The notes below the pieces were generated by a model, which did not search any database, was not told the DNA's origin, and saw nothing but the letters and a program-made list of their open reading frames with translations. From Streptacidiphilus albus JL83 (GTDB lineage: Bacteria > Actinomycetota > Actinomycetes > Streptomycetales > Streptomycetaceae), in contig NZ_JQML01000001.1 of the NCBI RefSeq assembly GCF_000744705.1, forward strand, positions 3,110,017 to 3,174,016: a stretch of 64,000 nucleotides of DNA, read 5' to 3'. Position 1 is the first letter of the stretch, and every line of letters starts with the position of its first letter. Below, piece by piece: positions 33,019-56,149 of the stretch. The position numbers were made by a program, and so were the translations under genes.

Positions 33019-33879
33019 GTGCCTGTGAACCGCAACCCCACTGTCCGCCAACGGCGTTTGGCCAGGACGCTGAGGGAGCTGAGGATCGGAGCCGGCCTGA
33101 CGCTCTTGCAAGTTGCCCAGCACCTCGAATGCGCCGAGAGCAAAATCAGTCGCATCGAGACCGCCCTGTCGGGCGTCCGGCCGATCGACCTGCGGATGAT
33201 GCTGGACTTGTACGGTGCGACGAACGCGGAGCTGCGACGCGAACTTGAGGAGCTGTCGCGCAATGCCCGCCTTCGCGGATGGTGGGATCGCTACTCTGAC
33301 GTTCTCTCACCTCGATACGCGCAGTTCATCTCCTTGGAGGCCGACGCCTCCCAGGTGCGCAGCATGCAGACGCTTCTAATCCCCGGACTGCTGCAGACCG
33401 AGGAATACACGCGGGCCGTTCTGAGAATTCAGGTGGACGGTGCAACCCCGGCTCAGATCGAGACGCATACCCAGGTTCGGCAGGAGCGACGCTCGGTACT
33501 CACGCGGGAGCCACCCCTGGAGATGCGCGTGGTCCTCTCCGAGAGGGCTCTCCGTCATGGTGTGGGCGGTCCGGACGTCATGCGCCCGCAGTTGGAGTAC
33601 CTGGCCGCAGCGGCAGGGAATCCGAACATAGAGATCCGGGTTCTGCCCGACGCATCGGATATCCATGCCGCCCTGCTGAACCCCGTCACCATTCTCAGCT
33701 TCCCTGATTCGTCGGAAACTGACGTAGTGTATGCCGATCACCTGCTCGGGACCATCTATTTCGAGGAACCCACCGAGATCGACATGTACACCAGCCTCTT
33801 CCGCCGCGCAACGGAAGAGTCGTTGCCGCCGGACAAGTCAATCGCTCTCATTGAGCGCGCCTCAAAGGAAATGGGCTAG
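33019..33879 (+). CDS. WhiJ-type XRE regulator with DUF5753
   Basis: 286 residues from a GTG at 33019, with GTAGGAGG 8 bases upstream. The HTH_31/XRE domain (about 10-70) reads RRLARTLRELRIGAG and LLQVAQHLECAESKISRIE. Then RGWWDRYSDVLSPRY and the DUF5753 hallmark LIPGLLQTEEYTRAV (about residue 117-131) follow. This is the WhiJ family, which in Streptomyces works with small DUF397 or BldB-like partners and influences development. The DUF397 gene follows 2 bp later, so the pair is expressed together. The family is highly paralogous and often lies beside horizontally acquired genes. The binding site is unknown. Confidence 0.92.
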   Translation: MPVNRNPTVRQRRLARTLRELRIGAGLTLLQVAQHLECAESKISRIETALSGVRPIDLRMMLDLYGATNAELRRELEELSRNARLRGWWDRYSDVLSPRYAQFISLEADASQVRSMQTLLIPGLLQTEEYTRAVLRIQVDGATPAQIETHTQVRQERRSVLTREPPLEMRVVLSERALRHGVGGPDVMRPQLEYLAAAAGNPNIEIRVLPDASDIHAALLNPVTILSFPDSSETDVVYADHLLGTIYFEEPTEIDMYTSLFRRATEESLPPDKSIALIERASKEMG

Positions 33880-33881
33880 TC

Positions 33882-34106
33882 ATGGCAAGCAACTTCCTCG
33901 AATCAGCGCCTGCTGCCGACGTTCAGTGGCGGAAGTCCTCCTTCTCTGGAGCGCAGAACGACTGCGTGGAGATTTCCGAGAGCCTGCCGGGTGTTGTACC
34001 TGTCCGTGACAGCAAAGACCCGGAAGGTCCTGTTCTCACCTTCGATGCGACTGCCTTCGCTTCGTTCATCCATGCGGTCAAGTCCGGCCACTTCAGGACC
34101 GTCTGA
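33882..34106 (+). CDS. DUF397 small partner protein
   Basis: 74 residues from the ATG at 33882, immediately after the regulator. The hallmark VQWRKSSFSGAQNDCVEI (about residues 14-31) and VPVRDSKDPEGPVLTFDATAF confirm DUF397. Such proteins are partners of WhiJ/AbaA-type regulators and are thought to affect their activity (established for a few loci). It is cytoplasmic and co-transcribed with the regulator. Confidence 0.93.
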   Translation: MASNFLESAPAADVQWRKSSFSGAQNDCVEISESLPGVVPVRDSKDPEGPVLTFDATAFASFIHAVKSGHFRTV

Positions 34107-34358
34107 CCCAAGGGCCACCAGCTGACAAAGGGCAGTCTCCTACTGCGAGTTGCGCCAGGGGACCGTCTTCGCCTCGGGCTGTCGCGGCAGGCCCGGCGGC
34201 GCCGAGTACATCGGCAGACTCAAGCGCTGACCTGCACTCCCAAGAACTGACCTCGCTGCCTACTCCGACCGCGTAGCGTGCTTGAGCGAGGGCCGCAACA
34301 TTGCGTCGCCGTCCGAACGTGTCCGGCACCATCGACCACGGAAGAAGCGCCGCTGACC

Positions 34359-35372
34359 ATGGGCATGCCTCACGGGTGCACAACGAACAGCAGGTTCACA
34401 TCCATCGAAATCTGCGCCGGTGTTGGCGGCTCCGCGCTCGGGCTGGAGCGGGCCGGTTTCGATCCGGTCCTGCTGATCGAGAACCGTCCGGTTGCCTGCG
34501 AAAGCCTGCGCGCGAATCGACCTGATTGGCGAGTGCTGGAGCAGGATCTGATCGACTTCGTACCCGAAGAGCATCCGCAGTGCTACGACGTGGACCTGCT
34601 CTCGGCCGGACTTCCCCGAGTGAAGGCCGACGCTGCGGTCGGCAGGTCCCGGGACGACGAACCTGAGTTGTCGCTGCTCAAGGCAACCGCCTTCCTCATG
34701 CACGCCGTCCAACCAAAGGCCCTGCTCATCGAAAACGTCCCCGGCCTGGTGACCAGGGACGCCTATGCGCCGATCCGAACGTTCCTGGAGGAGGAACTTC
34801 ACCACCTCGGCTACCGTGCGCGCTCCCTCGTGCTGGAGTCCGCCGACTTCGGCTTGCCACAGAAACGCCAGCTCGGCATCATTATCGCCTTCAGGGGAGA
34901 CCTGCTCGACTCCTTCGAGGAGCCGATCCATCTACCGGGGCCGCCCCTCACAGTCGGCCAGGTCCTCGGCCCCTCCATGGCAGCGGACGGTTGGCCCGAA
35001 GCGGCAGAGTGGGCCGCACAGGCCAACCGCCCGGCTCCGACGATCGTGGGTGGCTCCTGGGAGCGTGGTGGTCCCGACCTCGGTCCAACCGGCGCGAAAC
35101 GATCATGGGCAGGCATGGGCGTCGATGGTGGAACCGTTGCCGATCAGATTCCAGGTCCAGGATTCCAATGGCGACCGGAGGAGGGACGTGCGGGCATGAT
35201 GGCGCTCACCGTTGAGCAGGTCGCGCTGCTCCAGGGGTTCCCACCGGACTGGCATGTGGCCGGCCGCAAGACAGCCCGCTACCGGCAGGTCGGCAACGCG
35301 ATGCCCCCACCGGTCGCGGAGCAGCTCGGGCACTCGATCGCCGCAGCCCTGACAGCCGAGCGGTCGTTCTGA
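34359..35372 (+). CDS. C5-cytosine methyltransferase homologue lacking the catalytic PC motif
   Basis: 337 residues from the ATG at 34359; an ATG two codons later and a GTG at 34278 are alternatives. Motif I (SIEICAGVGGSALGLE, residues 15-30), motif II (LIENRPVA), motif VI (IENVPGL, 124-130), a motif VIII-like region (DFGLPQKRQ) and motif X (RYRQVGNAMPPPV) are present. At motif IV, where an active enzyme has PCQ, it reads LLSAGLPRVKADA (80-92): the catalytic cysteine is replaced by Arg87. It should therefore bind SAM and perhaps DNA but not methylate, unless in a complex. The active relative is 132 bp downstream, so a heterodimer or a regulator of the active enzyme is plausible (inference). 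Confidence 0.85.
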   Translation: MGMPHGCTTNSRFTSIEICAGVGGSALGLERAGFDPVLLIENRPVACESLRANRPDWRVLEQDLIDFVPEEHPQCYDVDLLSAGLPRVKADAAVGRSRDDEPELSLLKATAFLMHAVQPKALLIENVPGLVTRDAYAPIRTFLEEELHHLGYRARSLVLESADFGLPQKRQLGIIIAFRGDLLDSFEEPIHLPGPPLTVGQVLGPSMAADGWPEAAEWAAQANRPAPTIVGGSWERGGPDLGPTGAKRSWAGMGVDGGTVADQIPGPGFQWRPEEGRAGMMALTVEQVALLQGFPPDWHVAGRKTARYRQVGNAMPPPVAEQLGHSIAAALTAERSF

Positions 35373-35504
35373 CTGCCCTTGTTGCGAGTGCGTCCAAAAC
35401 GAGGCCCACGGCCGGCTAGCATGGGGACCGTTCAGCCCTGTGTGATCCCGGGTGAACCACGACACCGATGAGTTGTTCATCGTCCCGCCCCGCAAGGATT
35501 GTAC

Positions 35505-36662
35505 GTGTCCAAGACCTTCAAGATCGTCGACCTGTTCGCCGGACCCGGCGGACTCGACCTCGCTGCCCAGAATTTGGGAGTTACGGTCGACCGGGGAATC
35601 GAATTCGACCCTGGCGCCTGTGCGACGCGCAAGGCCGCCGGGCTGGGCACCACGCCGGGCGACGTACGCAATTTCGGACCGGCTGACTATCCGAACGCGA
35701 ATGTACTGACCGGCGGACCTCCCTGCCAGACTTTCTCGGTCGCAGGCAAGGGTGAGGGCCGGACCGCATTGGCCGAGGTGGAGAATTTCGCCGACCAGTA
35801 TTTTAAATGCTTCGAAACCAGGGACATCGAGGGATTCAAGAGGATCCACGACGATCTCAAGCAACTCAGCGATGACCGTACCGGCCTGGTCCTGGAGCCC
35901 TTGCGATGGGCACTCGAAGCCCTCATGGGCCAGAATCCGTATCAGGCGATCATCCTGGAGCAGGTTCCCACGGTTCTGCCGGTCTGGAAAAAGTTCGCAA
36001 ATATCCTTGAGGCCACGAACAGCTATGCGGTAGCTGAGCCGGCAGTGCTGCACACGGAACAGTTCGGCGTGCCTCAGACCCGTCGAAGGGCGATCATGAT
36101 TGCCCGTTTCACCGGACCCGATGCGATGTTGCACGGAGTCCCCAAGCAGCCCGGACCGACCCACCAGTCCTACCGCAAGAACGTCCCCCGACATGTACAG
36201 GGCGCCAACATCCCGGGCTGGGTGACAATGGCCGACGTCTTGAAGCGCCACACCCCGTACGAGGTGAAGTCGAACTACGGCACCGGTGGTGACCCGGAAG
36301 CGCGGGGCCGACGCCGTCACGACAATCCGTCGGCCACCGTGACCGGAAAGGCGTCGCGCAACAGGCTGGAGTGGGGAGGGCAGGAAATCGGCGAGTTCTC
36401 CCTCAGGGAATTGGGCGAACTACAGACGTTCCCCGCTGACTACCCATGGCGTTTCATCGACCGGGACGGCACAGAAAGAGATGCCGTGGACGGGAACGGA
36501 AAAGAGCTGCCCGGCGTCCGCAGTGTCATTTCTCAGCAGATCGGGAATGCCGTTCCCCCCCGTTTTGGCATGCATGTGCTGGCCGCCGCACTGGACCTTC
36601 GATCCGACCTGCTGGACGACACAACGAAGCCGCTGACCTGGAAGCGTCCGCACACCGTATAG
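35505..36662 (+). CDS. Active-type C5-cytosine DNA methyltransferase (drmMII-like)
   Basis: 385 residues from a GTG at 35505, chosen since AAGGA lies 6 bases upstream; a TTG at 35499 is the alternative. Motif I is IVDLFAGPGGLDLA (7-20), motif IV is GGPPCQTFSVAGKG (70-83; Cys74 nucleophile), motif VI reads ILEQVPTV with Gln in place of Asn, motif VIII is QTRRRAIMI, and motif X is SQQIGNAVPPRFG. It methylates cytosine within a specific DNA sequence, which cannot be told. In DISARM class 2 a 5mC methyltransferase (DrmMII) protects self DNA, and here it lies convergent with the DrmB gene. It could alternatively belong to a plain R-M system with Vsr. Confidence 0.92.
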   Translation: MSKTFKIVDLFAGPGGLDLAAQNLGVTVDRGIEFDPGACATRKAAGLGTTPGDVRNFGPADYPNANVLTGGPPCQTFSVAGKGEGRTALAEVENFADQYFKCFETRDIEGFKRIHDDLKQLSDDRTGLVLEPLRWALEALMGQNPYQAIILEQVPTVLPVWKKFANILEATNSYAVAEPAVLHTEQFGVPQTRRRAIMIARFTGPDAMLHGVPKQPGPTHQSYRKNVPRHVQGANIPGWVTMADVLKRHTPYEVKSNYGTGGDPEARGRRRHDNPSATVTGKASRNRLEWGGQEIGEFSLRELGELQTFPADYPWRFIDRDGTERDAVDGNGKELPGVRSVISQQIGNAVPPRFGMHVLAAALDLRSDLLDDTTKPLTWKRPHTV

Positions 36663-36744: not shown

Positions 36745-36771
36745 CCCCCGTACGACCCAACGGACCGCAGG

Positions 36772-38640
36772 TCACCAGGGGCCGAAGAACCCAGGCACCG
36801 AACCGTCCTGGGTGCCCACCAGGGCAGCTCGGTCAAGGATGGTGTTGTTGACCTCGCAGCTGGTTTCCGGGAGCAGAACGCAGGCGTGGCAGGCCGCGAG
36901 GTTGAGGCTGTCGGTACCGGCGGCCTCCGCCTCCATACACAGTGGGTCGTTGGAGCACCACCGCGCCCGATCGAGTGCGGAGCGGAGGGTCTGGCGCAGG
37001 CGGCCCGGTTCACCCTGGGCGACAATGCCACCGAGGCTGCCGGCCGAGTCGCTGGTCGCGGTGTAGATCAGAATGCCCGCCATATCGGGCCCGACATACA
37101 GCCGCTCGCGCAGAGATGCGGCTGGGTAGCCACCGTCCAGGCTCCATTCATTGATCAGAATGTGGGCCAACGTGTGCACCGCGAGGAAGCGGGGCGAGGC
37201 TGGGGACTCCGGGATCGGCTTGGCTGCGTCGACCGCGCGACTACGCAGCAGACCGTCGTGATTGGTCCGGATACGCTCCGCTCTGTCGAATGCAGCCTGG
37301 TAGCCGACCTGTTGCTCCCAGTCCTGTAGGCGCTGCGGGTCCAGAGTGACGAAGACTCCTTCACCGCTGACCTCGATCGCGGGAAGCCATCCCAAGGGTT
37401 CCCGGGACAACTTCGCGCGACGCCGTGGCTCGTCGGCCGCGCTCGGCTCCTCAACGCGGGTGAAGCTCTGCAGCGCCCTGACCTCGCGAAGGCGTTTCAC
37501 CAGCATGACGCGCTCGACGCCCAGGTCCAGAAGAGCCTCGGCCCCGCCTCGGGGCGGTTCACAGACGAAGTCCTGGCGTTGAGCGCTGCCCTCTTCGGGG
37601 TGGTGAGTGTTGAGGCTGCGGAACTCCTCCTGGTAGATCTTCTCTCGGGGGGAGCCTGTGACAGGGGACTCGTCGGCCGGTCCGTCCTTGGCCGCATTCA
37701 ACCGCTCCACCAACTCGATGACCGCTTCGGCGGTGTACTCAGGATGATGGGTGAAGAACTTCTCATAGCGGAGGATGACTTGGATGTCCGCCGGTGATTC
37801 ATCCCTTATCCGGTCGTAGTAGGGAGCGACAGCCTTGTAGAGGCCCTCACTCCACGGCGGGATTGACAAGGCGGAGTGCACAACCGGATTCCACGCGCTG
37901 GAGGAACCTCGCTGCAGGGTACGCGGAACGGCGTCGCAGAACTCGTTGGGAGCGTCCCTCAGCCAAGGACTCCGCCCGGTGCAGCGGATACCCAGATCCT
38001 TGAGCGCACGGCTTCGGAAGGCTCCCTCCAGCGAGACCTTCTTGACTCCACAGGTACAGCCGATCAGCACCGAACGGAGCGAGGCTGTCGAACCCTCGGC
38101 GTGAAGGGTCAGATTCCCACCGCACGAGCCTCCCGAAGCGGCGTCGCCCCGCTGATAGTCGGCAGAGCGGTGCAGCCATTTCCAGTAGGGGAAGTCGTCG
38201 ATGTGTCCGTACGGGCAAGCGACGACGAAGCGGGAGGGAACCAAATCCAGCTGACACTTGCCGCATTCTGCCTTGCCCATAGGCGAGTTGAAGCTGCGAA
38301 AACGCTGCAGATCGCCACAGTTCGGGCAGGAGTACCAGACCGGGAATCGTGCAGCTCTGACACCGTCCCTGGCTCTCTCGGGCTCAGGAGCCGGCGGAAG
38401 TCGGAAATGGTTCACACCGAGAGGTCGGGAGAGCCGAGGCTCCCAGATCGGGTGAGCCTCTGCAATGTCCCAGGAGTCCAAACCGGTCAAGATGAAGGAC
38501 TCGTTGTCCACTGCGATCATCGCGCCGACGCCGTACGTCGTGATCAGCTGGGAGCGTCGGATCTCCCCCAGCTTTCGCGCGCGGCGAACAGCGGGTCCAC
38601 TGGCGACGCGGCTTCGGGAGCGGGGCGGCATGGGGCTCAT
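36772..38640 (-). CDS. drmB: DISARM DrmB-like protein (DUF1998)
   Basis: 622 residues from the ATG at 38640, 2 bp after the drmA stop. A zinc ribbon is seen early (YSCPNCGDLQRF and later ECGKCQLDL), followed by CPYGHIDDFPYWKW. The C terminus is the DUF1998 core, with HTLAHILINEWSLDGGYPAA, AGILIYTATSDSAGSLGG, ARWCSNDPLC and LNLAACHACVLLPETSC, all features of DrmB. DrmB forms a complex with the DrmA helicase that senses DNA and is needed for DISARM restriction of phage (established for class 1/2 systems). The gene is last in the four-gene minus-strand operon. drmC (phospholipase D nuclease) is absent on both sides. Confidence 0.9.
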   Translation of the reverse strand: MSPMPPRSRSRVASGPAVRRARKLGEIRRSQLITTYGVGAMIAVDNESFILTGLDSWDIAEAHPIWEPRLSRPLGVNHFRLPPAPEPERARDGVRAARFPVWYSCPNCGDLQRFRSFNSPMGKAECGKCQLDLVPSRFVVACPYGHIDDFPYWKWLHRSADYQRGDAASGGSCGGNLTLHAEGSTASLRSVLIGCTCGVKKVSLEGAFRSRALKDLGIRCTGRSPWLRDAPNEFCDAVPRTLQRGSSSAWNPVVHSALSIPPWSEGLYKAVAPYYDRIRDESPADIQVILRYEKFFTHHPEYTAEAVIELVERLNAAKDGPADESPVTGSPREKIYQEEFRSLNTHHPEEGSAQRQDFVCEPPRGGAEALLDLGVERVMLVKRLREVRALQSFTRVEEPSAADEPRRRAKLSREPLGWLPAIEVSGEGVFVTLDPQRLQDWEQQVGYQAAFDRAERIRTNHDGLLRSRAVDAAKPIPESPASPRFLAVHTLAHILINEWSLDGGYPAASLRERLYVGPDMAGILIYTATSDSAGSLGGIVAQGEPGRLRQTLRSALDRARWCSNDPLCMEAEAAGTDSLNLAACHACVLLPETSCEVNNTILDRAALVGTQDGSVPGFFGPW

Positions 38641-38642
38641 GA

Positions 38643-41600
38643 TCAGTGCTCCAGAAAGAATGAGGATGAGGCATCGACGTCGCGCAGGCTCCACAGCGTG
38701 GCCCAGCCGGAGTTGGCGTCGGGCTCGGCCGTGAAATTTCTGAGCAATGCTGGAGACCGGCGGCCCGGCGGGCGCTCGTAGACAAGGTTCGGGTTGTCCG
38801 CTGCAGCCGACTTCCACCACCCGGTGAACTCGTCGAAGGCTCGTTCTGTCGCGTCATATTCGGCTTCGTCGACCGCTCGCACCCGGTCGAGCACGGCCCC
38901 CCTCACCAACCGGCCGTTGAGATCGGCCCAGAAGTCCTCAACGCGCGCAGCTGCCTCGTTGGGCCGTGCCTGGGGAATCAGGATCCGGGCGAGGGCAACA
39001 ATCACAGCATGCAATCCGCGGTCACGGGCGCGGGAGGAAAAGGGGGTGACGCTCGTCGACTCCACCTCTCGGTAAAGCGCGGAGTGGAAGTGCTGGAAGC
39101 TCTCGTAGTGCGAACGATCACGTGAGCGCGTCGAGTTCAGCATGACCGCGACCAGGCCGGGGTGACGGCGACCGACACGGCTGGTCGCCTGGATGTATTC
39201 GGCAGTGGTCTGCGGCTGACCCATGACCGCCATCAGCCCAAGACGATCAACGTCAACGCCGACCGAGATCATGTTGGTGGCGAGCAAGACGTCGAGCACG
39301 TCCTTGCTCGGCAGCGCGAGTTCGACCTCCTTGAGCCGCTTTGGGATCTCGCTGGCGCCGGCGCGGCTGCTCAGTTCGGAAAGCAGCTCGACCGCTCGAG
39401 ATTGTGCCTTGTCGCCTCCGTCGCGTACGGCAAGGTACGTCAGGCGGTCTTGGACGTCGTCAAGGACCTGCAGTTCCGCTGCCGACAGCAGGCGGAGACT
39501 GTTGAAGTAGCCGACGAGGGTCCAGTAGGCGTCCTTGACCCCAGGGACATCGTCTTCGATGAACGCTTGATGCAGTAGGGCCGCGTAGGTCCTAATGAGC
39601 AGGGTGGCCTGGCTGGTACTAGAGGTGAACAACCCGATATAGCGTCGGGCCGCCTTTCGGTCGCGTGAGGTCTCGACGGCGAACCAGGAGTCACGGGAAT
39701 CCAGACCGCTGGGCGGGAACTGACTGACCGTCCGGGCGAACAGATGCTTGCCCTGTTCGTCGGCGCGACGGATGGTGGCGGTCGAGGCAATCACCTTGGG
39801 GCGGTCGGCCAGCATGTCCACCGCTGTCTCGTAGAGCCCCGTGAGCGTACCGAGGGGGCCGGAGATCAGGTGGAGTTCGTCCTGGACGACGAGTTCGGGC
39901 GGCCTGACGCCGTCCTCCTTGTCACGGTTGAAGAGCGCGGCAGTATCCTCGCGCCACGGCATGGAAGCGAACTTGTCCACGGTCGCGATGATCAGCGTCG
40001 GGCGAGCCCGGTAGACCGCCTCGTCGATCAGATGAACAGGGAGGCCGTGTCGGAAGTCGCAGTCCGCTGCCGGGCAACGGATCACCATTCGCTGTTCGGC
40101 CGCGATGACCTCGTAGTCGGAGGCGTCCAGTGCGGTGCCGCACCATGAGCATGCCTGCAACTGCACGGGGTTCTCGGTCTGCAACGGCCGCCCGGGGTTG
40201 GAGCGCAGTTCCTGGAGCTTCTCCGCAGCCGCTGCCAGAGTGTTGGGAGTCGCAGACCTCCCGACCCACATGCCGATCGAGATCTCCTCGGTCCCCAAGG
40301 TACGAGGATCGGCTGTCCGCCGACGTTCCATCGCACAGATGAGTGCCGCCGCACGTTCGAACTGCTGCAGCGTCAACAGCCGCAAGGTATAGCGCATCAG
40401 GACCGTGACGCCGCCGCCCTGGGCACCATCGCGCAGCCGGCGCAGAAATGTGGTGAACGCGATCAATCCGAGGTAGGCCTCGGTCTTGCCTCCACCGGTC
40501 GGGAACCACAACAGGTCGGCTACGCCGCGGTCCTCATGATTCGGGTCAATGATGCCCTGCAGGCACAGCAGGATGAACGAGACCTGGAACGGCCGCCACC
40601 TGCCCTCCTGGGGCTTGATCGGGCCCTGCTTGCCCCCCTTGATCCAGGATGTACGGGCGCGCTGGTCCGCCATCGCCAGATTGGCAAGTTGGAACGCGCG
40701 CATGACCTCAGGTTGGCCTTGATCCCCAAGTAGGTCCACACCCTTGTGCATACGTTCGAGGGCTTGGCGACAGAGCTCGATCTGCCTTTTGGCCGTGGCC
40801 CCGTGTTCGCCGGCACTGAGCAGTTCGGCCTCGGCGGCTTGTGCCGCGATCCACGCCTCGTATCCGCTGAGCAGCGTACGCAGAGCGGTGATCACGTCGG
40901 ACGCCGGCGCAGTGCCCAATCCGTGCATGGTCAAGGCACTGTCGTCGATGGTCGGGTTCGAGTCGGTGAGCAACACCTCATGCGCGGGGACGAACTCGGT
41001 GCGCACAGCGGCCACGGCGGATCGGGCAGATGGGGCGCCGATCGCCGGAGGTGTCCAGTCCCACTGGGCCGCGCAGCCATGGCCGGTCGCGAAGCTGGGC
41101 GCATGGCGATGCAGCAGCCGACTCAGAGCCTGCTCGGGGTCGACCGCTCCCTGGACCGAGAGTCGCTCCACGAACGGAACGCTGCCCTCCTTAGCCCCAG
41201 TAACGATCAGCACCGGCTGGTAGAAACAGTGGGCGTCACGCAGGTCGTACTTGCCGACGAGCAGACTGTTGACCAAGGTGGCAGTCACCGTGACAGTGCC
41301 GCGGGGCCCGGTTGCCGGGCGGACGAGCACGCGCAGTTCCAGCCCCGGGTGCAGCTCCACGCCGGGATGGGCGGCCGGTGAGGTCACGTCGAGGGTGACT
41401 GGCTCGAGCTGCAGCGTGATGCGGCGCCAACGCTCCCGCTGCTCCTCGGTACTGCGAGCCTCGGTCCGGATGGCCGGAACGGGGTTGCCGTCATCGTCCT
41501 CCGGCACGTAAACGGCCGTCTCCACCGTCAAGGTGATCGCCGACGACGCTGACGGATCGACGGCGAAGGTCAGGCCCATGGACGAGGGGCGACGAGTATT

Positions 41601-41885
41601 GGCCAGCGCGACTCCGAGGTCCGGCTGCGACTCCTCGTGATCACCGCGCGCAGGGTACGCAGCCTCGTCCTGGCCGTCCTGATCACGTACGGCATCCGCT
41701 GCTTCAACCGCCGCTTCCTCGTCCCTGGCCTGAGGAAACAGAACGCCGACCGGGTAGACGGTGATCGGGGCGTCGTCCTTGAGGATCTCGCTCTCGCCAC
41801 CGACCGGCCCAAGGAGGTCCAGGCGCAGAGCATCAATGATGGAATCGCGCAGTTCGTAGTGGGCTTTGTAGTCCGGAACGCTCAC
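38643..41885 (-). CDS. drmA: DISARM DrmA-like helicase
   Basis: 1080 residues, start overlapping the previous gene by 4 bp. The N-terminal ~450 residues are a long domain with ELRDSIIDALRLDLLGPVGG and YPVGVLFPQ, as in DrmA. The SF2 helicase begins with Walker A LWFPTGGGKTEAYLG, the DExH-like Walker B is LVVQDELHLISGPLG, and the second RecA domain carries LATNMISVGVDVDRLGLMAV and YIQATSRVGRRHPG (motif VI). DrmA is the DNA translocase of DISARM and pairs with DrmB; both are adjacent here and coupled. Its natural partners DrmC and DrmE are not present, while UvrD-like and GHKL-helicase genes take their place, so the assembly may act in a different way. Confidence 0.92.
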   Translation of the reverse strand: MSVPDYKAHYELRDSIIDALRLDLLGPVGGESEILKDDAPITVYPVGVLFPQARDEEAAVEAADAVRDQDGQDEAAYPARGDHEESQPDLGVALANTRRPSSMGLTFAVDPSASSAITLTVETAVYVPEDDDGNPVPAIRTEARSTEEQRERWRRITLQLEPVTLDVTSPAAHPGVELHPGLELRVLVRPATGPRGTVTVTATLVNSLLVGKYDLRDAHCFYQPVLIVTGAKEGSVPFVERLSVQGAVDPEQALSRLLHRHAPSFATGHGCAAQWDWTPPAIGAPSARSAVAAVRTEFVPAHEVLLTDSNPTIDDSALTMHGLGTAPASDVITALRTLLSGYEAWIAAQAAEAELLSAGEHGATAKRQIELCRQALERMHKGVDLLGDQGQPEVMRAFQLANLAMADQRARTSWIKGGKQGPIKPQEGRWRPFQVSFILLCLQGIIDPNHEDRGVADLLWFPTGGGKTEAYLGLIAFTTFLRRLRDGAQGGGVTVLMRYTLRLLTLQQFERAAALICAMERRRTADPRTLGTEEISIGMWVGRSATPNTLAAAAEKLQELRSNPGRPLQTENPVQLQACSWCGTALDASDYEVIAAEQRMVIRCPAADCDFRHGLPVHLIDEAVYRARPTLIIATVDKFASMPWREDTAALFNRDKEDGVRPPELVVQDELHLISGPLGTLTGLYETAVDMLADRPKVIASTATIRRADEQGKHLFARTVSQFPPSGLDSRDSWFAVETSRDRKAARRYIGLFTSSTSQATLLIRTYAALLHQAFIEDDVPGVKDAYWTLVGYFNSLRLLSAAELQVLDDVQDRLTYLAVRDGGDKAQSRAVELLSELSSRAGASEIPKRLKEVELALPSKDVLDVLLATNMISVGVDVDRLGLMAVMGQPQTTAEYIQATSRVGRRHPGLVAVMLNSTRSRDRSHYESFQHFHSALYREVESTSVTPFSSRARDRGLHAVIVALARILIPQARPNEAAARVEDFWADLNGRLVRGAVLDRVRAVDEAEYDATERAFDEFTGWWKSAAADNPNLVYERPPGRRSPALLRNFTAEPDANSGWATLWSLRDVDASSSFFLEH

Positions 41886-49011: not shown

Positions 49012-49554
49012 GGGTGTCCCCCTTGGGCAAGGTTCGGCAGGCAGATGAGTTGGGATGGCACGGGAACAGGCATCACTGAGCCCGCTCCCGACCAACCGCG
49101 TTAAGCGGTGCGTACGATCGCCAAAATCCGGATGCATCTGCCTGAAAACGGGCACACGTATGCCTGTGCCTCACCGTCAGCATCCTTGCCCTGACGGACA
49201 CTTGGGCCAATCAGAGAATCACAGCCTACTGAGTCCCCACCTGCCACGCAAGACTGATCCCAATGAGTCCATCAAGTAGCACGATGTTGACCGAGTTGCC
49301 CGGATTCGCACCGAACGAAGCCCTCCTGACGCCTCAGCCGACCGAGTGAACGACGACATCGCAGCGACGTCGTCATCGACTCGAGCCACCCGAATCCGAA
49401 TCACGAAGGGCACTGCTGGCGCAGGTCGGCGATGGGTGTGTCAAACATCAATTGACACTGCATGTGAGTCAAAAAGCCCTGGTAGCGTGGCCTTCTAGTG
49501 GCAGACTTACGTCGTTCACGGCCCGTGGGCGCGACAAGGAGAGGAGCGATCCGC
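49012..49554. other. Divergent control region between the two GHKL operons
   Basis: No convincing gene lies in these 543 bases. It holds the upstream part of the small cysteine-rich gene, and a 7-7-7 dyad (49438-49458) with an embedded TTGACA. A TAGCGT hexamer (49483-49488) may serve as a -10 for the plus-strand operon. GC content is lower than in the flanking genes. Confidence 0.5.
49438..49458. promoter_or_regulatory. Perfect inverted repeat, candidate operator of the XRE-GHKL protein
   Basis: GTGTCAA and TTGACAC flank a 7-nt centre, 97 bp before the ATG at 49555. The right arm contains TTGACA. XRE-type regulators often bind such dyads in their own promoter. Confidence 0.45.
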
Positions 49555-51669
49555 ATGCAGGACGGTGAAGAGTTCGGCCCCTGGCTCGGGCGGCAGCTGC
49601 GTCGTCGGGAGATGACCCAGGCAGAGCTCGCCGGACAACTCGATATGACTCGCGCTGCGGTGTCCGCCTGGATCACCGGTCGAGCCCAACCGCGAGCCGA
49701 CGTTGTCCGCAAGATAGCCGCGATCCTCGACACCGACATCACCACGGTCTACGAACGGACCTCGGACGCCGTCGCGGCGAGCCCCATCGACTGGTACCAC
49801 CGCCCCGCCCACTTCGACGGTGGGCGCGAGCTCGGCAACGCCGCCGCCTTCGCCTTCGATGCGGACCTCGGCACTCTCGCCCGTGAAGTCACCCAGAACT
49901 CTCTGGACGAACGCCTCGATATCAAGCAGCCCGTCCGTGTCCGCTTCACATTGCACGAACTGACGGGCGAACATCTCAACTCATTCCTGAACGCTTTGAA
50001 GTGGGACCAACTATCCGAGCACTACGCCGCTGCCGCCGCTTCCGGGCAGAAGGTGGGCCGGGTGCTCGCCGAGGGCCTGCGTGAATTGAGCGAGTCCAAC
50101 TCCCTGGTGCTCCTGCGCGTCGACGACTACAACGCGTCCGGGTTGACCGGACACGAGTACGACGACGGTCGCTTCGCCGCTGTCGTACGGCGGCAGTTGG
50201 ACAGTCGGAAAAGCAACGGTCGTGCCGGTGGCTCCTACGGACTCGGTAAGGCAACGCTGTGGGCCACAAGTCGGCTGGGGCTGGTCCTGATCAACAGCAC
50301 CCTCTCCGAACCGCACGAAGGACGGACCGAGCGGCGTGTCATCGGTCGGTTGGACCTGCCGTGGCGAGTAGTGGACGGCGCAGCCTTTGCCGGTCCTGCA
50401 TGGCTCGGTGAGCCCGACTCGACGAAGGAGTACGAGGGCGTGGCCCGCTCCTGGTGGGCGGACCAGGAGACAACCGAGGCGTTGCAACTCGATCGCGAGG
50501 GAGCAGCACCCGGTACATCCTTCCTCATTGTCGGAGCACATGACGCGGCAGCCCAGGCCACAGGGGCCGACGGCCTCCAGAACATGCACGACAAGCTGTG
50601 GGACACCATCGCCGACAACTTCTGGGCGGCCATGACCGGCGGCAGAGCCGGCGTGCCTCTGCTGGAGGCGTCGGTTCGCACGCTCCGCAATGGCGACGTC
50701 CTGATCCCCGAGTCCCGGGTCACCCCGGAACAGCGGCATCCCGCCTTGACCCGGGCACTGCGGGCCTATCTCGACAACGAAACCGTCTCGGAGATCACCG
50801 GCATCGACCAGGTTGCACAGGTCTCCGTCCCACTGAACGTCCCGGCGCTGCGCGCTGCGAGCAGGGGCGCAAAGGGACAACTGCACCAGGCTGTGCTGCT
50901 GGTGACGCCGGCGGACGATACCGACAAGCAGCACAGTGGCGTCGTCTGCATGCGCGGCAGCCGAATGACCATCAGGACAAGACGCCCGCAGAATCTCGGC
51001 ATGGGAGTCGAGCCCTTCCAGGCCGTGCTTCTGGTCGGCTACGCCACCGGTCGCGAGACCGAGGACGTCGCCGCTGCCGAAGCGTTCCTTCGCGCTTCCG
51101 AACCTCCCGAGCATGATCGCTGGGGCCGCACGGAGGAATTGGCAGCCGCCTACGCACGCGGAGCGCTGAGTCGACTCGATGATTTCCGTTTGGCGACCGA
51201 TGACGCCCTGCGCCAAATCGTCGCTGTACGCGAGACTCAGCAGGACGGCGACAAGGGCCCCGAGCTTCTACGTAGCCTGCTGCGGCTGAACCCGCTTGGC
51301 GGTCGGACTGGAGGCGGACGTCGAAGCGAGGGATATCCGGTGGTTGACGACGTCGATGGTGAGATCAACGCCGCCGGAGCCTGGGTCCTTCGGGTCCGAC
51401 TCAGCGTCCCGCAGCGCGACGACGCCTGGCAACTCGTTCCCCTGGCCAAGTTCGACGTACGCTCGGGCACCAAGCCCGTCCTGAACTGGGCGGAACTCAC
51501 GGCAACGGAGAACTGCCGGATCGACGGCAATGTCGTTCGGGTCGACCCGGGCGTTCGGCACGCCGCGTTTTCCGGTGTCACCGCAGTCGAGAGCCACCCG
51601 GTGTCAGCAGCGATGGCCGGCGTGACAGTTGATCTCCAGAAGGCAGCGGCAGGGGCGGCGAGCGCATGA
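49555..51669 (+). CDS. XRE domain fused to a GHKL (Hsp90/MORC-like) ATPase
   Basis: 704 residues from the ATG at 49555, preceded by AAGGAGAGGAG; a GTG at 49498 would add 19 residues. An XRE helix-turn-helix fills residues ~8-65 (LRRREMTQAELAGQLDMTRA, VSAWITGRAQPRADV). The GHKL domain follows (80-~330), with N-box REVTQNSLDER (110-120), VDDYNASGLTG (189-199) and the lid glycines GGSYGLGKATLWA (225-237). The C-terminal ~350 residues form an unknown domain with strands such as VVCMRGSRMTIRTR and GAWVLRVRLSVPQ. ATP-switch proteins of this type with a DNA-binding head occur in R-M-like islands. It may autoregulate the operon and act as the ATP switch of its complex (inference). Confidence 0.88.
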   Translation: MQDGEEFGPWLGRQLRRREMTQAELAGQLDMTRAAVSAWITGRAQPRADVVRKIAAILDTDITTVYERTSDAVAASPIDWYHRPAHFDGGRELGNAAAFAFDADLGTLAREVTQNSLDERLDIKQPVRVRFTLHELTGEHLNSFLNALKWDQLSEHYAAAAASGQKVGRVLAEGLRELSESNSLVLLRVDDYNASGLTGHEYDDGRFAAVVRRQLDSRKSNGRAGGSYGLGKATLWATSRLGLVLINSTLSEPHEGRTERRVIGRLDLPWRVVDGAAFAGPAWLGEPDSTKEYEGVARSWWADQETTEALQLDREGAAPGTSFLIVGAHDAAAQATGADGLQNMHDKLWDTIADNFWAAMTGGRAGVPLLEASVRTLRNGDVLIPESRVTPEQRHPALTRALRAYLDNETVSEITGIDQVAQVSVPLNVPALRAASRGAKGQLHQAVLLVTPADDTDKQHSGVVCMRGSRMTIRTRRPQNLGMGVEPFQAVLLVGYATGRETEDVAAAEAFLRASEPPEHDRWGRTEELAAAYARGALSRLDDFRLATDDALRQIVAVRETQQDGDKGPELLRSLLRLNPLGGRTGGGRRSEGYPVVDDVDGEINAAGAWVLRVRLSVPQRDDAWQLVPLAKFDVRSGTKPVLNWAELTATENCRIDGNVVRVDPGVRHAAFSGVTAVESHPVSAAMAGVTVDLQKAAAGAASA

Positions 51670-52646
51670 GCAGGACGATGTATCCATACCCGACATTGTT
51701 CGGGCCGATCGGCCTGGAAGTGACCCGAGTTCGGTTGGACGCTCGTCCCCTCGAGTACACGATGATCTCGCACACTCAACAGACCGTGGCCCTGCACGAC
51801 GTCGGGCGCGAGGACTGGGAGGAGGGTTCCATCGATGTGCGGGCCACCCTGCCGGAGCGTGAGCTCGCCGACGGCCCCTGGTCCGAGTTGAGTTGTGTGG
51901 CGATACTCACCGAGGGGGCCACCAATGCGCGCATGGTGCGCCGCCTGGTCAAGGATCGGGCTTCCGACACTTGGCAGGGTTCCGTACCGCTGCTCCGCTC
52001 GCGGCACACCGCGCGTGCCGTGCTCACTGTCCAGGCAGTCGCCACCATCGGCGGGGTTCGCGGCCGCACCATCGGTCGCGGCGAGAAGGACTGGGTCATC
52101 GACCTCGAATCACGAACCCCCGTCCGTGACCGGGAGATCGACATCATTCCTGTCGACTTCCGTGACGGGCCGCACGAGTGGCTTCGCCCCTACAAGGATG
52201 CTCCCTGGCTCGTCGAGACCACCGGCGACATGCCTGCCGTCTACCTCAATGAGGCATTCGAAGGTCTGACCAAGCTGCTGCGTGGCGGCGGAAGTGCACT
52301 GGAGAAGGCCACCGCTGCGTTGGTCAACGCCCAGATTGTCACCGAGGCGTGGACGGTCATGTTCCACTCCGCAGTCAGCGACCTTCAGTTGGACGAGCGA
52401 GGCCGTCCGCAGGTCCCGGACGGCTGGCGCGAATCAGTTCTCCGAGTCATGCTTCCCGACATTCTGCCCGGCATGTCACCCGAGGACGCCGTCGCCGAGC
52501 TCCAGACGCGGCGCGAGGAGGGTTACGGCTGGAGCGAGATGCAGCCACGAATTCAGTACGCTGCCGCCCGCCGCTCCCAGCTGCCCAAGAACCTCGCTAC
52601 CACCCTGCGCACCGTCTTCCGCTCCCAGGAGGGGGCGACCCGATGA
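51666..52646 (+). CDS. Unknown protein, 326 aa, of the GHKL operon
   Basis: The ATG at 51666 overlaps the previous stop by 4 bp. N-terminal strands dominate (about 1-130: FGPIGLEVTRVRLDARPLEY and LSCVAILTEGATNARMVRRL, with TARAVLTVQAVATIGGVRGR), and an alternating charged core to ~190. A helical C-terminal part contains EKATAALVNAQIVTEAWTVM and PGMSPEDAVAEL. No catalytic motif is recognised. Similar proteins sit in the same position next to XRE-GHKL proteins in actinomycete islands, so it is probably a structural partner. Confidence 0.6.
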   Translation: MSRTMYPYPTLFGPIGLEVTRVRLDARPLEYTMISHTQQTVALHDVGREDWEEGSIDVRATLPERELADGPWSELSCVAILTEGATNARMVRRLVKDRASDTWQGSVPLLRSRHTARAVLTVQAVATIGGVRGRTIGRGEKDWVIDLESRTPVRDREIDIIPVDFRDGPHEWLRPYKDAPWLVETTGDMPAVYLNEAFEGLTKLLRGGGSALEKATAALVNAQIVTEAWTVMFHSAVSDLQLDERGRPQVPDGWRESVLRVMLPDILPGMSPEDAVAELQTRREEGYGWSEMQPRIQYAAARRSQLPKNLATTLRTVFRSQEGATR

Positions 52647-53548
52647 TTCCCTCCAACCTTCCGGACCGGTGCGCACTGCTCCCGGTCACCGTGGCAGGCA
52701 AGTTCCTGACCCGAGACGTTCTCACCGGCCAGGAGCACCCGGCCCAAGTGGCCCTGCTCCGCGCAAGCACTCCGATCTCGGACACTTCGGCACGCTGGGA
52801 CGTCGCACCGGTGCGGGAACTGCTCGAAGAGGCCATGCACCGATTCAGCGACCGCCACACGCAGGCCGATGCCTGGCTGTCAGGACGCCTGCACGCCACT
52901 CTGCGGATGACACGTAGCGAGGCCGCGAACAAGGAGCTGTGGAGCTTCCTGGCCCTGGTCGTTGCCCCGGACTACGTGATGTGGCGCCATCGTTCCTCCG
53001 GCAAGCATCGCGAGGGCGCTCCCGGGGCTGTATCAGCCGCGCGCTTCATCGGTTCCAACGACACTCAGGCATTCGCTCGCCTGTGGTGGGCGGCCGAACT
53101 CTTCCGTGACGGCACCGATTACCGTCCGGCCGAGTTGGCCTGTGCAAACCAGGACCTGCTCAACACAGCCCTGCGCCTGGCCATCATCGACCACCGCCCC
53201 ACCGCACTGGCCCTGGTCCGGGTTCTGCAGGACCTCGCCGATGGCGGGGCCACTCGCATGGGAGATCGCGCCAACGCGTTGTGCTCGGCCATCAACGCCG
53301 CTGGCGGCACGCTGATGTACGACGTACTCGCTCCCGATGACCTCCCCGACAACAAAGCTCTCCTGTCGTGGATCGATGATGCGGATGGCGCACCGCCGGT
53401 GCCCTGGGACCGGCTTCCCGACGGTCCCGATGACGGAGCCGTTCCTGAGCAAGCAGTCGGCACACTCACCCGTCTCTTCGAGCAGTTCCAGCAGCAGTCC
53501 TCGTTGCGTGATCGCACAGTGAAGAGGAGCCAAGAGGAGGACAGCTGA
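52643..53548 (+). CDS. DUF6339-like protein of the GHKL operon
   Basis: 301 residues from the ATG at 52643, overlapping by 4 bp. The hallmark NKELWSFLALVVAPDYVMWRH (~residues 93-113, written here as ELWSFLALVVAPDYV) and the helices PTALALVRVLQDLADGG fit the DUF6339 family (assignment from memory of the hallmark, not searched). Function unknown, regularly found in R-M and defence islands next to GHKL proteins. It ends 12 bp before the convergent Vsr stop. Confidence 0.62.
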   Translation: MIPSNLPDRCALLPVTVAGKFLTRDVLTGQEHPAQVALLRASTPISDTSARWDVAPVRELLEEAMHRFSDRHTQADAWLSGRLHATLRMTRSEAANKELWSFLALVVAPDYVMWRHRSSGKHREGAPGAVSAARFIGSNDTQAFARLWWAAELFRDGTDYRPAELACANQDLLNTALRLAIIDHRPTALALVRVLQDLADGGATRMGDRANALCSAINAAGGTLMYDVLAPDDLPDNKALLSWIDDADGAPPVPWDRLPDGPDDGAVPEQAVGTLTRLFEQFQQQSSLRDRTVKRSQEEDS

Positions 53549-53560
53549 GTTTCCGGCGGT

Positions 53561-53995
53561 TCAACCGGGGGCCCTTCTGCGGCGTGTCAGTCGACGGAGC
53601 ATCTGCTCCACCTGCTCCGCGACCTCGTCGGGATCCTCGTGCTCCCAGAAGCGCAGCACTGTCCAGCCCTCGGCCATCAGGTGTTCAGTGGTCTCGCGGT
53701 CACGGGCGATGTTGCGATCCAATTTGGTGCGCCACCACTCGGCGTTGGCCTTCGGGCTGGTGGCGTGCTCGGGACAGCCGTGCCAGAAGCAGCCGTCGAG
53801 AAACACCGCGACCTTGGGTCCAATGAAGGTGATGTCCACGGTCCGGCGAGCCATTCCGGGCACCCGCCGGTTGACCCGGTAGCGCAGTCCGTGCCCGTAC
53901 AGCAGTCGGCGCACGGCCAGCTCCTGGGCTGTGTCCTGGGAGGCCTGGCGGCTCATCCGGGAGGCGACAGCCGGAGAAGAGGCAGTGGGCGACAT
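53561..53995 (-). CDS. vsr: Vsr (very short patch repair) family endonuclease
   Basis: 144 residues from the ATG at 53995. The sequence RRLLYGHGLRYRVNRRVPG, TVDITFIGPKVAVFLDGCFW and HGCPEHATSPKANAEWW is the Vsr signature: the catalytic Asp in VDITFI, the aromatic pair and histidine in GCFWHGCPEH. A conserved helix ends in EGWTVLRFWEHEDP. The first His of the E. coli motif is Asp here, as in many homologues. Vsr nicks T:G mismatches that arise by deamination of 5-methylcytosine, and so pairs with 5mC methyltransferases. In MORC-type R-M islands Vsr-like proteins are often the restriction nuclease (inference). Confidence 0.92.
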   Translation of the reverse strand: MSPTASSPAVASRMSRQASQDTAQELAVRRLLYGHGLRYRVNRRVPGMARRTVDITFIGPKVAVFLDGCFWHGCPEHATSPKANAEWWRTKLDRNIARDRETTEHLMAEGWTVLRFWEHEDPDEVAEQVEQMLRRLTRRRRAPG

Positions 53996-54247
53996 ATCAT
54001 CCAGTCTGTCCCAACGGAGTGGATCACCGCCACACGAGCCGTGTCCCTTCACGCCGTAGCTGCACCCGCTCGCGCCGCGCACCGCGCTGCGCCGGGCGCC
54101 GCCGGAGGCCCGGCGGAAACCCGCCCGACGCCCCCGCGCCGCTCCGCTAGAGTCGGTCTGCTCATTCGTCTACGCGGCCCGCCGGACTTCCCCTATGGGA
54201 CATGTCCCCACCCGCACGAGTTACTTCGTGCTGCCTGGGGGCATTTC

Positions 54248-56149
54248 TTGCTGTTCCGCGATTCGGCCACTGCCGTCGCTGCTGAGAGCGTGGCCGGCAC
54301 GCTGGCCCTGCGACTGACCGAGCAGTTCGTCCACGTGCACGGCCACCGGCCCGGCGCGGGCGAGGTGCGTTCCTGGGAGCGGAGTATCCCGTTGGTCGCC
54401 AGGGCCCTGGTCGACGCGGGCCTCGGCCAGGTCGAGGTGTTGGTCGAGTACAGCCTGCCGCTCAGCAGCAAGCGGGCGGACGTGGTGCTGGCCGGCCTGC
54501 ACCCGAGGACCGGCGAGCCCTCCTACGTGGTGGTGGAGCTCAAGCAGTGGAGTTCGGCGACCCCCGTCGACGGCGACCCGGGGCTGTGCCAGATCGACGC
54601 GTACGCCCGCCCGGTCCTCAACCCGATCGAGCAGGTCCGGGGCTACTGCAGGTATCTGACGGACTTCAACGGAGCGCTGTCCGAGCATCCGGAGCGCCTG
54701 TCGGGGGTGGCCTTCCTGCACAACGCCACCGAGTTCGGCATCAACGGCCTGTATCTGGCCGAGCAGGACGAGCACGGTCGGCTCTTCTCCGGGGAGCGGC
54801 GCGGCGAGTTCACCGACTTCCTGAGCTCCCGGCTCTCCCCCACCTCCGGTGCCGCTGCCGCCGACGCGCTGCTCAGCGGCAAGATCGGGCCCTCGCGGCA
54901 GTTGATGGCGGTGGCTGCGGACGAGGTCCGTGAGCGCGAGCAGTTCGTGCTGCTGGACGAGCAGAAGGTCGCCTTCCGGCTGGTCCTCGAAGCCGTCCGG
55001 CGGGCCCGGCAGGCCGACCACAAGGAGGTGGTCGTGGTCACCGGGGGTCCGGGCACCGGCAAGAGCGTGATCGCCCTCTCGCTCCTCGGCGAGCTCTACC
55101 GGCAGGGCGTGTCCGCTCTGCACGCCACCGGTTCCAGCTCCTTCACCACGACCATGCGCAAGGTCGCCGGCGCCAGGAAGAAAGAGGTCAAGGACCTCTT
55201 CAAGTACTTCAACAGCTTCATCACCGCCGAGCGCAACACCCTGGAGGTGCTGCTCTGCGACGAGGCGCACCGGATGCGCCAGACGTCCGCGAGCCGCTTC
55301 ACGCCCGCCGGTGCTCGAACGGGCAGGGCGCAGATCGAGGAGCTGATCGACGTGGCGCGCGTGCCGGTCTTCCTGCTCGACGAGCACCAGGTCGTGCGCC
55401 CGGGCGAGATGGGCACCGTGCAGGAGATCGAGCAGGTGGCCGCAGCACGCGGGCTCCGCTGCACGGTCGTGCCGCTGGACACCCAGTTCCGCTGCGGCGG
55501 CAGCGACTCCTACCTCCGCTGGGTGCGGCGGCTGCTGGGGCTGGAGGAGGGCGGCCCGGTCGGCTGGGAGCCGGACGGCAAGATGCAACTGCTGCTGGCC
55601 GACAGCCCCGAGGAGCTGGAGTCCTTCCTCGACGACAAGCTGGCCGAGGGGTACGGGGCCCGGATGTCGGCCGGCTACTGCTGGCCCTGGACCAAGAAGA
55701 CACCGCCCGGGGAATCGCTGCCCCACGATGTGCGGATCGGCAGCTGGAGCAGGCCGTGGAACGTCTACGGCGAGCGAGCGGTGAACGGAGCCCCGCCGGC
55801 CGCGCTGTGGGCCACCGATCCGGCCGGCTTCGGCCAGGTCGGGTGCGTCTACACGGCGCAGGGTTTCGAGTACGACTGGAGCGGCGTCATCCTCGGCCCC
55901 GACCTGGTGTGGCGTCAGGGCCGGTGGGTGACGGACCGGACCAAGTCCAAGGACCCGGCCTTCAAGAAGGGCACCCCGGACGCGGATGTGGATCGCCTCA
56001 TCCGCCACACGTACAAGGTGCTGCTCACCCGCGGCATGATCGGTACTGCCGTGTACTCAACCGATGAAGAGACCCGCGAACTGCTTCGCACCCTGGTCGC
56101 GCCGAGGGTACTGGCTGCCTCGGGCCGGGCGTCCGCTGCATCGAGGTGA
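54248..56149 (+). CDS. DUF2075-type helicase with N-terminal PD-(D/E)XK nuclease
   Basis: 633 residues from a TTG at 54248, chosen because GGGGG lies six bases upstream and family members start at the equivalent point; the frame is open further upstream without similarity. The nuclease domain has EVLVEYSLPL, SSKRADVVLAG (Asp78) and YVVVELKQW (Glu97, Lys99). The helicase has Walker A GGPGTGKS (266-273), Walker B VLLCDEAHRM, the motif III region VFLLDEHQVVRPGE and a C-terminal VGCVYTAQGFEYDWSGVI. This is the DUF2075 / Schlafen-like helicase group found in R-M and defence islands. It may act with the island or independently. It stands next to the divergent Vsr gene and in front of the transporter operon. 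Confidence 0.85.
   Translation: MLFRDSATAVAAESVAGTLALRLTEQFVHVHGHRPGAGEVRSWERSIPLVARALVDAGLGQVEVLVEYSLPLSSKRADVVLAGLHPRTGEPSYVVVELKQWSSATPVDGDPGLCQIDAYARPVLNPIEQVRGYCRYLTDFNGALSEHPERLSGVAFLHNATEFGINGLYLAEQDEHGRLFSGERRGEFTDFLSSRLSPTSGAAAADALLSGKIGPSRQLMAVAADEVREREQFVLLDEQKVAFRLVLEAVRRARQADHKEVVVVTGGPGTGKSVIALSLLGELYRQGVSALHATGSSSFTTTMRKVAGARKKEVKDLFKYFNSFITAERNTLEVLLCDEAHRMRQTSASRFTPAGARTGRAQIEELIDVARVPVFLLDEHQVVRPGEMGTVQEIEQVAAARGLRCTVVPLDTQFRCGGSDSYLRWVRRLLGLEEGGPVGWEPDGKMQLLLADSPEELESFLDDKLAEGYGARMSAGYCWPWTKKTPPGESLPHDVRIGSWSRPWNVYGERAVNGAPPAALWATDPAGFGQVGCVYTAQGFEYDWSGVILGPDLVWRQGRWVTDRTKSKDPAFKKGTPDADVDRLIRHTYKVLLTRGMIGTAVYSTDEETRELLRTLVAPRVLAASGRASAASR

Follow-up and report, generated by a model that had tools for sequence, protein, structure and literature searches.

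A predicted DISARM-like, two-module restriction system of actinobacteria with two GHKL operons and a conserved pseudo-methyltransferase

The two DISARM classes are distinguished by class-specific genes, which are DrmD and DrmMI in class 1 and DrmE and DrmMII in class 2. DISARM DrmAB loads on 5' overhangs and its ATPase activity is limited by methylated DNA, and DrmC is dispensable and often missing (PMC9142583; this and the papers below are cited from the available parts of their texts). GHKL ATPases accompanied by a superfamily 2 (SF2) helicase, a C5-methyltransferase and Vsr were described in 2008 (Iyer, PMC2292703), and in ARMADA the YprA helicases are fused to a Vsr-type nuclease that is predicted to be active (PMC12458937). 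The latter source, a preprint, also speaks of numerous uncharacterised DISARM-like classes, and a DISARM-like system beside McrBC has been mentioned (PMC11090510). Here, we analysed a 64,000-nucleotide stretch of Streptacidiphilus albus JL83 (the window), which spans positions 3110017-3174016 of a single 9.9 Mb contig. It carries an operon for a fused GHKL ATPase and helicase (GHKL-helicase), a UvrD-like helicase, DrmA and DrmB, a divergent operon for an XRE-GHKL protein, a protein that we call U326 and a DUF6339 protein, and genes for two members of the C5-methyltransferase family (MT1 and MT2) and Vsr. Judged by comparison of their sequences, these about ten genes are a gene system kept in order in dozens of related species, which is DISARM-like and belongs to neither DISARM class 1 nor class 2. 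We consider it probable that they constitute a two-module, methylation-marked restriction system of actinobacteria.

As in DISARM, DrmA and DrmB exceed their NCBIfam cut-offs and are encoded in one operon with a C5-methyltransferase nearby, and NCBIfam names the window protein 'DISARM system helicase DrmA'. Unlike DISARM, the operon contains extra UvrD-like and GHKL-helicase genes, its DrmA falls into a clade of its own, and the presumed DrmC controls match none of the 79 related loci described below. The divergent operon matches the PADLOC candidate system PDC-M33, with XRE-GHKL corresponding to PDC-M33A and DUF6339 to PDC-M33C. PDC-M33B was not seen, because U326 has no match at 1e-3 in Pfam, PADLOC or NCBIfam. 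It differs from PDC-M33 in being joined to DrmAB and, in the locus L119, in a sigma-70 fusion. The MORC/paraMORC restriction-modification operons also combine GHKL ATPases with SF2 helicases, a C5-methyltransferase and Vsr (PMC2292703), whereas one GHKL protein of this locus is sacsin-like and fused to a helicase, and DrmA and DrmB go unmentioned in the available text of that paper. ARMADA type II resembles the locus in having a YprA-family helicase and a GajB-like helicase in one operon (PMC12458937); here, however, DrmA and DrmB are encoded separately, Vsr is unfused, and the window proteins scanned against Pfam, PADLOC and NCBIfam gave no match to BrxHII- or PglX-type proteins of ARMADA. 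The N-terminal GHKL part of the fusion matches the sacsin domain NF047352 (61.3 bits, cut-off 50) and the Tiamat protein TmtA of PADLOC (2e-36). Unlike Tiamat as we know it, the protein has a C-terminal helicase (PF04851, 1e-14; RadD model, 103 bits, under its cut-off of 720) and a ten-gene context.

A preliminary description of this DNA had given the locus a MORC label. This label is too specific. The two GHKL proteins are by their matches of different kinds, one sacsin-like (NF047352; TmtA) and the other PDC-M33A-like. A PDB sequence search with the GHKL parts returned only weak sacsin matches for the fusion and only a helix-turn-helix (HTH) match for XRE-GHKL. The same description had suggested a defence type not yet described. 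This is right only in part. Of the joint gene set, no description was recognised in a literature search that covered main texts and few subscription papers, and it is not described in the available parts of PMC9523054, PMC8011034 and PMC11090510. The PDC-M33 half, however, is in PADLOC, DrmA and DrmB have NCBIfam names, and the DISARM-like classes reported in the available text of PMC12458937 may include the clade found here.

The gene order was scored by best tblastn match across 79 actinobacterial loci, the best of 318, which were fetched by GHKL-helicase alignment only and read with flanks of up to 10 kb. GHKL-helicase, UvrD, DrmA and DrmB follow each other in this order on one strand in 77 loci, the exceptions being L018, where the contig ends inside UvrD, and L065. 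The divergent XRE-GHKL, U326 and DUF6339 operon is present in 70 loci and both operons together in 69. Among the nine loci without the divergent operon, six have about 10 kb or more of sequence on that side (L057, L065, L072, L084, L086 and L087), two are at contig edges (L069 and L078), and L076 has XRE-GHKL beyond DrmB. MT1, MT2 and Vsr were detected in 68, 60 and 61 loci, respectively, and their usual place is beyond DUF6339; those of the window's MT1 and MT2 lie beyond DrmB. Both GHKL operons occur with drmAB in Streptomyces, Rhodococcus, Amycolatopsis, Actinomadura and Nonomuraea, among other genera. Clustering of all called open reading frames (ORFs) in these loci gave few further recurrent families, each in at most 29 loci. 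The source genome contains a second GHKL-helicase/UvrD/DrmA/DrmB operon about 140 kb away (L008:4749-16468, corresponding to G000:C1 about 2994748-3006467), whose neighbours are two C5-methyltransferases keeping PPCQ, a NaeI-type restriction enzyme and an MrcB_N-NOV_C protein; no second match to XRE-GHKL was found elsewhere in this genome. The two operons had been named in the preliminary description, and their genes were confirmed. The concern raised there, that the GHKL operons might be accidental neighbours without conserved synteny, falls away because both of them travel with drmAB. In L065 (Rhodococcoides corynebacterioides), a GHKL-helicase homologue of 50% identity has no adjoining UvrD match, and the contig stops 2.5 kb further.

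We then examined a sample independent of the system, consisting of 121 genomes of the source family with the source genome counted. DrmA matches were found in 41 genomes, GHKL-helicase in 15 and XRE-GHKL in 14. Both halves of the GHKL-helicase were matched at 13 loci in 12 genomes (in two pieces in G031 and G075), the other three genomes matching the helicase part only, and all 13 loci adjoin a DrmA. All 12 full-length DrmA matches with at least 54% identity have an adjoining GHKL-helicase; the thirteenth locus, in G007, combines a GHKL-helicase of 31% identity with a NERD-type helicase and a distant DrmA. Thirteen of the 14 XRE-GHKL genes lie at most 8 kb from a DrmA, nine in window-type loci and four by a more distant DrmA class without GHKL-helicase, and the sole gene away from DrmA, in G044, stands with Mza-type genes. 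In a tree of 89 DrmA sequences, the GHKL-helicase-linked DrmA (G007 apart) form one clade of 79 with a support of 1.0, separate from three presumed canonical DISARM DrmA and from 'class b' DrmA. Over 55 loci, the pairwise distances of GHKL-helicase correlate with those of DrmA (0.97) and XRE-GHKL (0.94). The correlation is lower for MT1 (0.71) and MT2 (0.45), a pattern that would be compatible with exchange of the specificity genes. Two ORFs of 753 and 332 amino acids (aa) divergent to the G007 cluster were considered as relatives of XRE-GHKL and U326, gave no useful match and look like antisense ORFs. A helicase-only relative of the GHKL-helicase lies a few kb from a DrmA match in G043 (G043:C1:3012105-3018377).

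The distribution of the two operons bears on an alternative that we regard as rather unlikely, namely that two separate defence systems, the DISARM-like DrmAB/UvrD/GHKL-helicase and PDC-M33 with a C5-methylase, are neighbours in a shared hotspot and do no joint work. The XRE-GHKL operon is absent from six loci with a full left flank, from the second copy in its own genome and from three family-sample loci. In L125 (G044), the XRE-GHKL, U326 and DUF6339 genes stand with MT1, MT2 and Mza genes and no DrmAB was found in the 16 kb read, and in L119, L120 and L131 the M33 half is accompanied by a different DrmA class with NERD- and UvrD-type helicases, not by the GHKL-helicase. Against two independent systems, the divergent arrangement is fixed in 69 of the 79 loci, and divergence is correlated across the operons (0.94). 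Moreover, where the GHKL-helicase is missing, the M33 half again adjoins a DrmA in four of five family-sample cases, which argues for a functional link.

In C5-methyltransferases, the Cys of motif IV is the nucleophile. Both genes assigned to this family in the preliminary description are present, but the reading of both as active enzymes is not supported. MT1, which in PADLOC matches the DruM proteins of Druantia best, scores 124.5 bits with TIGR00675 (cut-off 100.65) and is a dead METHYLTRANSFERASE: in a side-by-side alignment with canonical enzymes, its motif IV reads GLPRVK, as against GPPCQ in active enzymes. Among 69 aligned sequences (the window and 68 loci), the catalytic position is occupied by Arg in 67, by Ser in two and by Cys in none, while the ENV and QxR motifs are kept in most. 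From this alignment, MT1 is therefore a conserved pseudo-enzyme. GLPRVK or GLPRVR was also found in L119, L131 and L125, and therefore the dead enzyme accompanies the XRE-GHKL module. MT1 was matched at 150 bits or more in 68 of the 71 loci with XRE-GHKL versus none of the eight without it, two of which are contig edges (Fisher p 6e-9, the related loci not being independent). MT2 matches TIGR00675 at 7.6e-18, under the cut-off, and has PPCQ in 54 of the 56 sequences listed, out of 61 aligned; among its PADLOC matches, the DrmMII models rank under other C5 models.

XRE-GHKL has no Pfam HATPase match, and it was assigned to the GHKL ATPases by the PDC-M33A match and by visual reading of its motifs, the key residues of which are kept in 68-70 of 70 sequences. 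The dyad GTCAA-N7-TTGAC precedes its gene with at most one mismatch in 54 of 70 loci, 28 of them exact. The same pattern was found upstream of GHKL-helicase in 2 of 78 loci and in 6 of 700 random pieces. This contrast is no independent test, because these loci are where the pattern was initially spotted and one half of the dyad resembles a -35 box. At up to one mismatch, no dyad was found in L119, L131 and L125, and one was found in L120, away from its XRE-GHKL gene. A long XRE-GHKL of about 1200 aa is encoded in L119:11296-14913, L120:4031-7627 and L131:4156-7749. The N-terminus of the L119 protein contains sigma-70 regions 2, 3 and 4 and matches MzaA. L120 and L131, whose ORFs are of similar length, match this sigma-type part as well. 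Elsewhere, the module was found beside Mza-type genes or, in the one example checked, in fusion with a sigma factor. The sigma-70 fusion in L119 and the conserved dyad point to transcriptional control by XRE-GHKL, with the dyad as a putative operator. In L121, L122 and L123, the sigma-type part was matched near 'class b' DrmA, with no XRE-GHKL match in the stretch read.

The two partners of XRE-GHKL were examined by structure modelling. The U326 model has a predicted local distance difference test (pLDDT) score of 92 and a predicted template modelling (pTM) score of 0.63; its PDB matches are only weak, and many of the 50 listed are immunoglobulin folds. DUF6339 was confidently modelled as an all-helical protein (pLDDT 92, pTM 0.89), for which the best Foldseek match in PDB has an E value of 0.15, and it possibly represents a new fold. 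A profile search of PDB sequences with U326 and DUF6339 returned no matches.

Motifs are intact in five ATP-dependent parts, namely DrmA, the UvrD-like helicase, both halves (GHKL and helicase) of the fusion, and XRE-GHKL. The Walker A and DEAH-type motifs of DrmA are kept in 75 of 75 sequences, and the Walker A Lys and DE residues of the UvrD-like helicase in 76 of 76. In the mechanism that we propose for the two-module system, MT2, probably helped by MT1, would mark host cytosines, and Vsr would repair the T:G mismatches that arise from deaminated 5-methylcytosine. DrmAB, as in DISARM, would load invading DNA that lacks the mark, or the 5' single-stranded ends of such DNA. The UvrD-like and GHKL-helicase motors would translocate on the loaded DNA, stripping or unwinding it, and the GHKL half of the fusion would serve as an ATP-gated clamp. 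XRE-GHKL, U326 and DUF6339 would be a module for sensing and control, which would bind an operator of its own and tune the system. MT1 would not itself methylate but may be either a reader that flips bases or an allosteric partner of MT2. Restriction would result from a replication block or from host nucleases; it could proceed without a nuclease of its own because DISARM can work without DrmC. A more specific form of nuclease-less restriction is put forward tentatively, as possible but short of probable. The dead MT1 would flip cytosines within target sites, read their methylation and license DrmAB, the UvrD-like helicase and the GHKL-gated helicase on unmarked DNA, and XRE-GHKL/U326/DUF6339, a module with a sigma-factor fusion in a relative, would link detection to transcription.

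Apart from Vsr, no nuclease was recognised in the conserved set. Thirteen window ORFs were scanned against PADLOC, where the lists for UvrD, MT1 and MT2 hold the best 25 of 50, 54 and 48 families, respectively. No DrmC was found among these ORFs, nor, with the best 25 families for UvrD, MT1 and MT2, were DrmD, DrmE, or a GajA beside the GajB-like helicase; DrmE was not searched in the 79 loci. For comparison, L126-L128 were regarded as DISARM of the canonical type because of their layout, with only DrmA and DrmB identified there with a model. Two DrmC-like controls, the presumed PLD proteins of L126 and L127 selected by place and by motif read by eye, match none of the 79 loci, in agreement with the absence of drmC stated in the preliminary description. 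Large ORFs presumed to belong to class 1 were also searched; those of L126 and L127 were called DrmD/DrmMI types by size and place, not by model. The 1137-aa ORF of L127 and the 1100-aa ORF of L126 match two of the 79 loci, strongly L076 and weakly L087, and two others match none. A strict scan for ORFs with the PLD motif found none and would have missed the L127 control, and a looser scan returned 12 hits among 1059 ORFs, one of which, L076:5176-6231, has a PLD-like appearance. This ORF of Pseudonocardia sp. CNS-004 is the site of the strong match to the large ORFs of L126 and L127 and lies near a window-type operon.

These results also bear on whether the system cuts DNA in the classical way through a nuclease concealed within DUF6339, U326, the central part of the GHKL-helicase or the C-terminus of UvrD, which we judge unlikely. 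Restriction needs an outcome while Vsr is the sole recognised nuclease, and DUF6339, whose fold has no match, contains many invariant polar residues. However, the weak matches of U326, a beta-sandwich with helices, include no nuclease among the best 50 of 1614, and the Pfam, PADLOC and NCBIfam scans gave no nuclease-family match (for UvrD, among the best 25 PADLOC families). In the C-terminal third of the UvrD-like helicase, no nuclease motif was recognised by eye among the conserved residues.

That Vsr itself is the effector, directed by MT1 or MT2 at unmethylated or hemimethylated sites to nick invading DNA, is quite doubtful. The gene is present in 61 of the 79 loci with its motif kept (DGCFWH in all variants listed), and the fused Vsr-type nuclease of the ARMADA YprA helicases, as given in the available text of PMC12458937, provides a parallel. 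On the other hand, Vsr is here a stand-alone protein found with methylase genes in most loci, scores under 100 bits in 18 of the 79 (some of which are truncated by the flank or at a contig edge), and stands with the same MT1/MT2 pair in L125, where the 16 kb read contain no DrmAB. The preliminary description had GHKL ATPases and Vsr or the DUF2075 helicase as the effector in place of drmC/drmE. Both genes are present in the window, but a replacement of drmC by Vsr is not supported, as Vsr accompanies the methyltransferase genes; the DUF2075/SLFN helicase is not supported as effector and was rejected as a component, as it is found in none of the 79 loci. Finally, a cluster for DNA repair or chromosome maintenance and not for defence is very improbable: the RadD-like, UvrD and Vsr proteins have repair relatives, but the set is unevenly distributed (12 of 121 family genomes have a GHKL-helicase matched in both halves) and lies in a GC-poor stretch, and the relatives concerned (DrmA, DrmB, PDC-M33 and Mza) are defence or candidate-defence families.

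With the two-module restriction system as the favoured reading, a loose list of neighbours becomes a defined actinobacterial gene system that would join two machineries mostly known apart. It shows the DrmAB core in new combinations with GHKL and methylase modules, outside DISARM classes 1 and 2. The dead methyltransferase, the putative operator and the sigma-factor fusion offer handles on nuclease-free action and on self/non-self distinction in DrmAB-type systems. The predicted barriers to DNA transfer in Streptomyces-type bacteria have a bearing on engineering them.

Table 1. Features of the locus in window coordinates; gene starts are predicted, as chosen start codons.
Feature	Positions	Strand	Evidence or remark
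MT1, C5-methyltransferase family without catalytic Cys	34278..35372	+	Pfam PF00145 4e-39
MT2, C5-methyltransferase with intact PPCQ	35499..36662	+	PADLOC MTase_II 2e-78
DrmB, DUF1998/MZB partner of DrmA	36772..38640	-	NF038324 480.6 bits (cut-off 240); PADLOC DrmB 2e-70
DrmA, YprA-family SF2 helicase, short form	38643..41885	-	NF038325 992 bits (cut-off 950); PADLOC DrmA 4e-238
GajB-like UvrD-family superfamily 1 (SF1) helicase	41882..43834	-	PF00580 1.8e-28; PADLOC GajB 6e-29
GHKL-helicase, fusion of Sacsin/Tiamat-like GHKL ATPase and ResIII/RadD-type SF2 helicase, 1591 aa	43831..48606	-	NF047352 sacsin domain, PADLOC TmtA, PF04851
Putative operator, dyad GTCAA-N7-TTGAC upstream of XRE-GHKL	49440..49456	+	sole exact match in 64 kb
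XRE-GHKL, XRE-HTH fused to GHKL-type ATPase, PDC-M33A-like	49498..51669	+	PF01381 8e-10; PADLOC PDC-M33A 1.6e-22
U326, adaptor-like, no family match	51666..52646	+	beta-sandwich N-terminal part and helical C-terminal part (model)
DUF6339 protein, PDC-M33C-like	52643..53548	+	PF19866 7.5e-16 (longer ORF); PDC-M33C 1.4e-11
Vsr mismatch endonuclease	53561..54082	-	TIGR00632 110 bits (cut-off 97.85); DGCFWH motif kept
DUF2075/SLFN-g3 helicase	about 54200-56149	+	
DUF5753 regulator, generic family	33019-33879		absent from the gene list of the preliminary description

On the minus strand, the GHKL-helicase/UvrD, UvrD/DrmA and DrmA/DrmB junctions (Table 1) measure -4, -4 and +2 nucleotides, and 4-nucleotide overlaps join XRE-GHKL to U326 and U326 to DUF6339. 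The GC content is 62-67% across about 31 to 54 kb and 69-78% in the flanks read. DNA homology with stretches of four same-genus genomes (the genus comprises 14 genomes in the collection, the source genome counted) starts only at 56267-56356, and an empty-site test on these four stretches found no clean empty site. The SLFN-g3/DUF2075 helicase has a GC content of about 70%, above the remainder of the island, and looks like a separate insertion. The DUF5753 regulator is unsupported as a component; this common family gave hits of 27-37% identity, and one of 24% (L122), in part of the loci.

A search of 72,556 plasmid records gave one partial match, and viral contigs gave two relatives. One of the latter (L140, an IMG/VR contig of 36.7 kb) encodes a near full-length distant GHKL-helicase with 29% identity over the whole alignment, and no partner genes were found beside it within the 9.9 kb read. 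In Embleya scabrispora (L086:9012-9191, 10001-14769), short XRE-GHKL and DUF6339 matches lie by a GHKL-helicase split in two overlapping ORFs, which looks like decay of the module. A protein of about 346 aa, whose C-terminal Cys/His cluster resembles, by eye, a SEC-C motif, is encoded near Vsr in L067:798-1838 and 21 further loci, and it may mark the chromosomal flank of a common insertion site.

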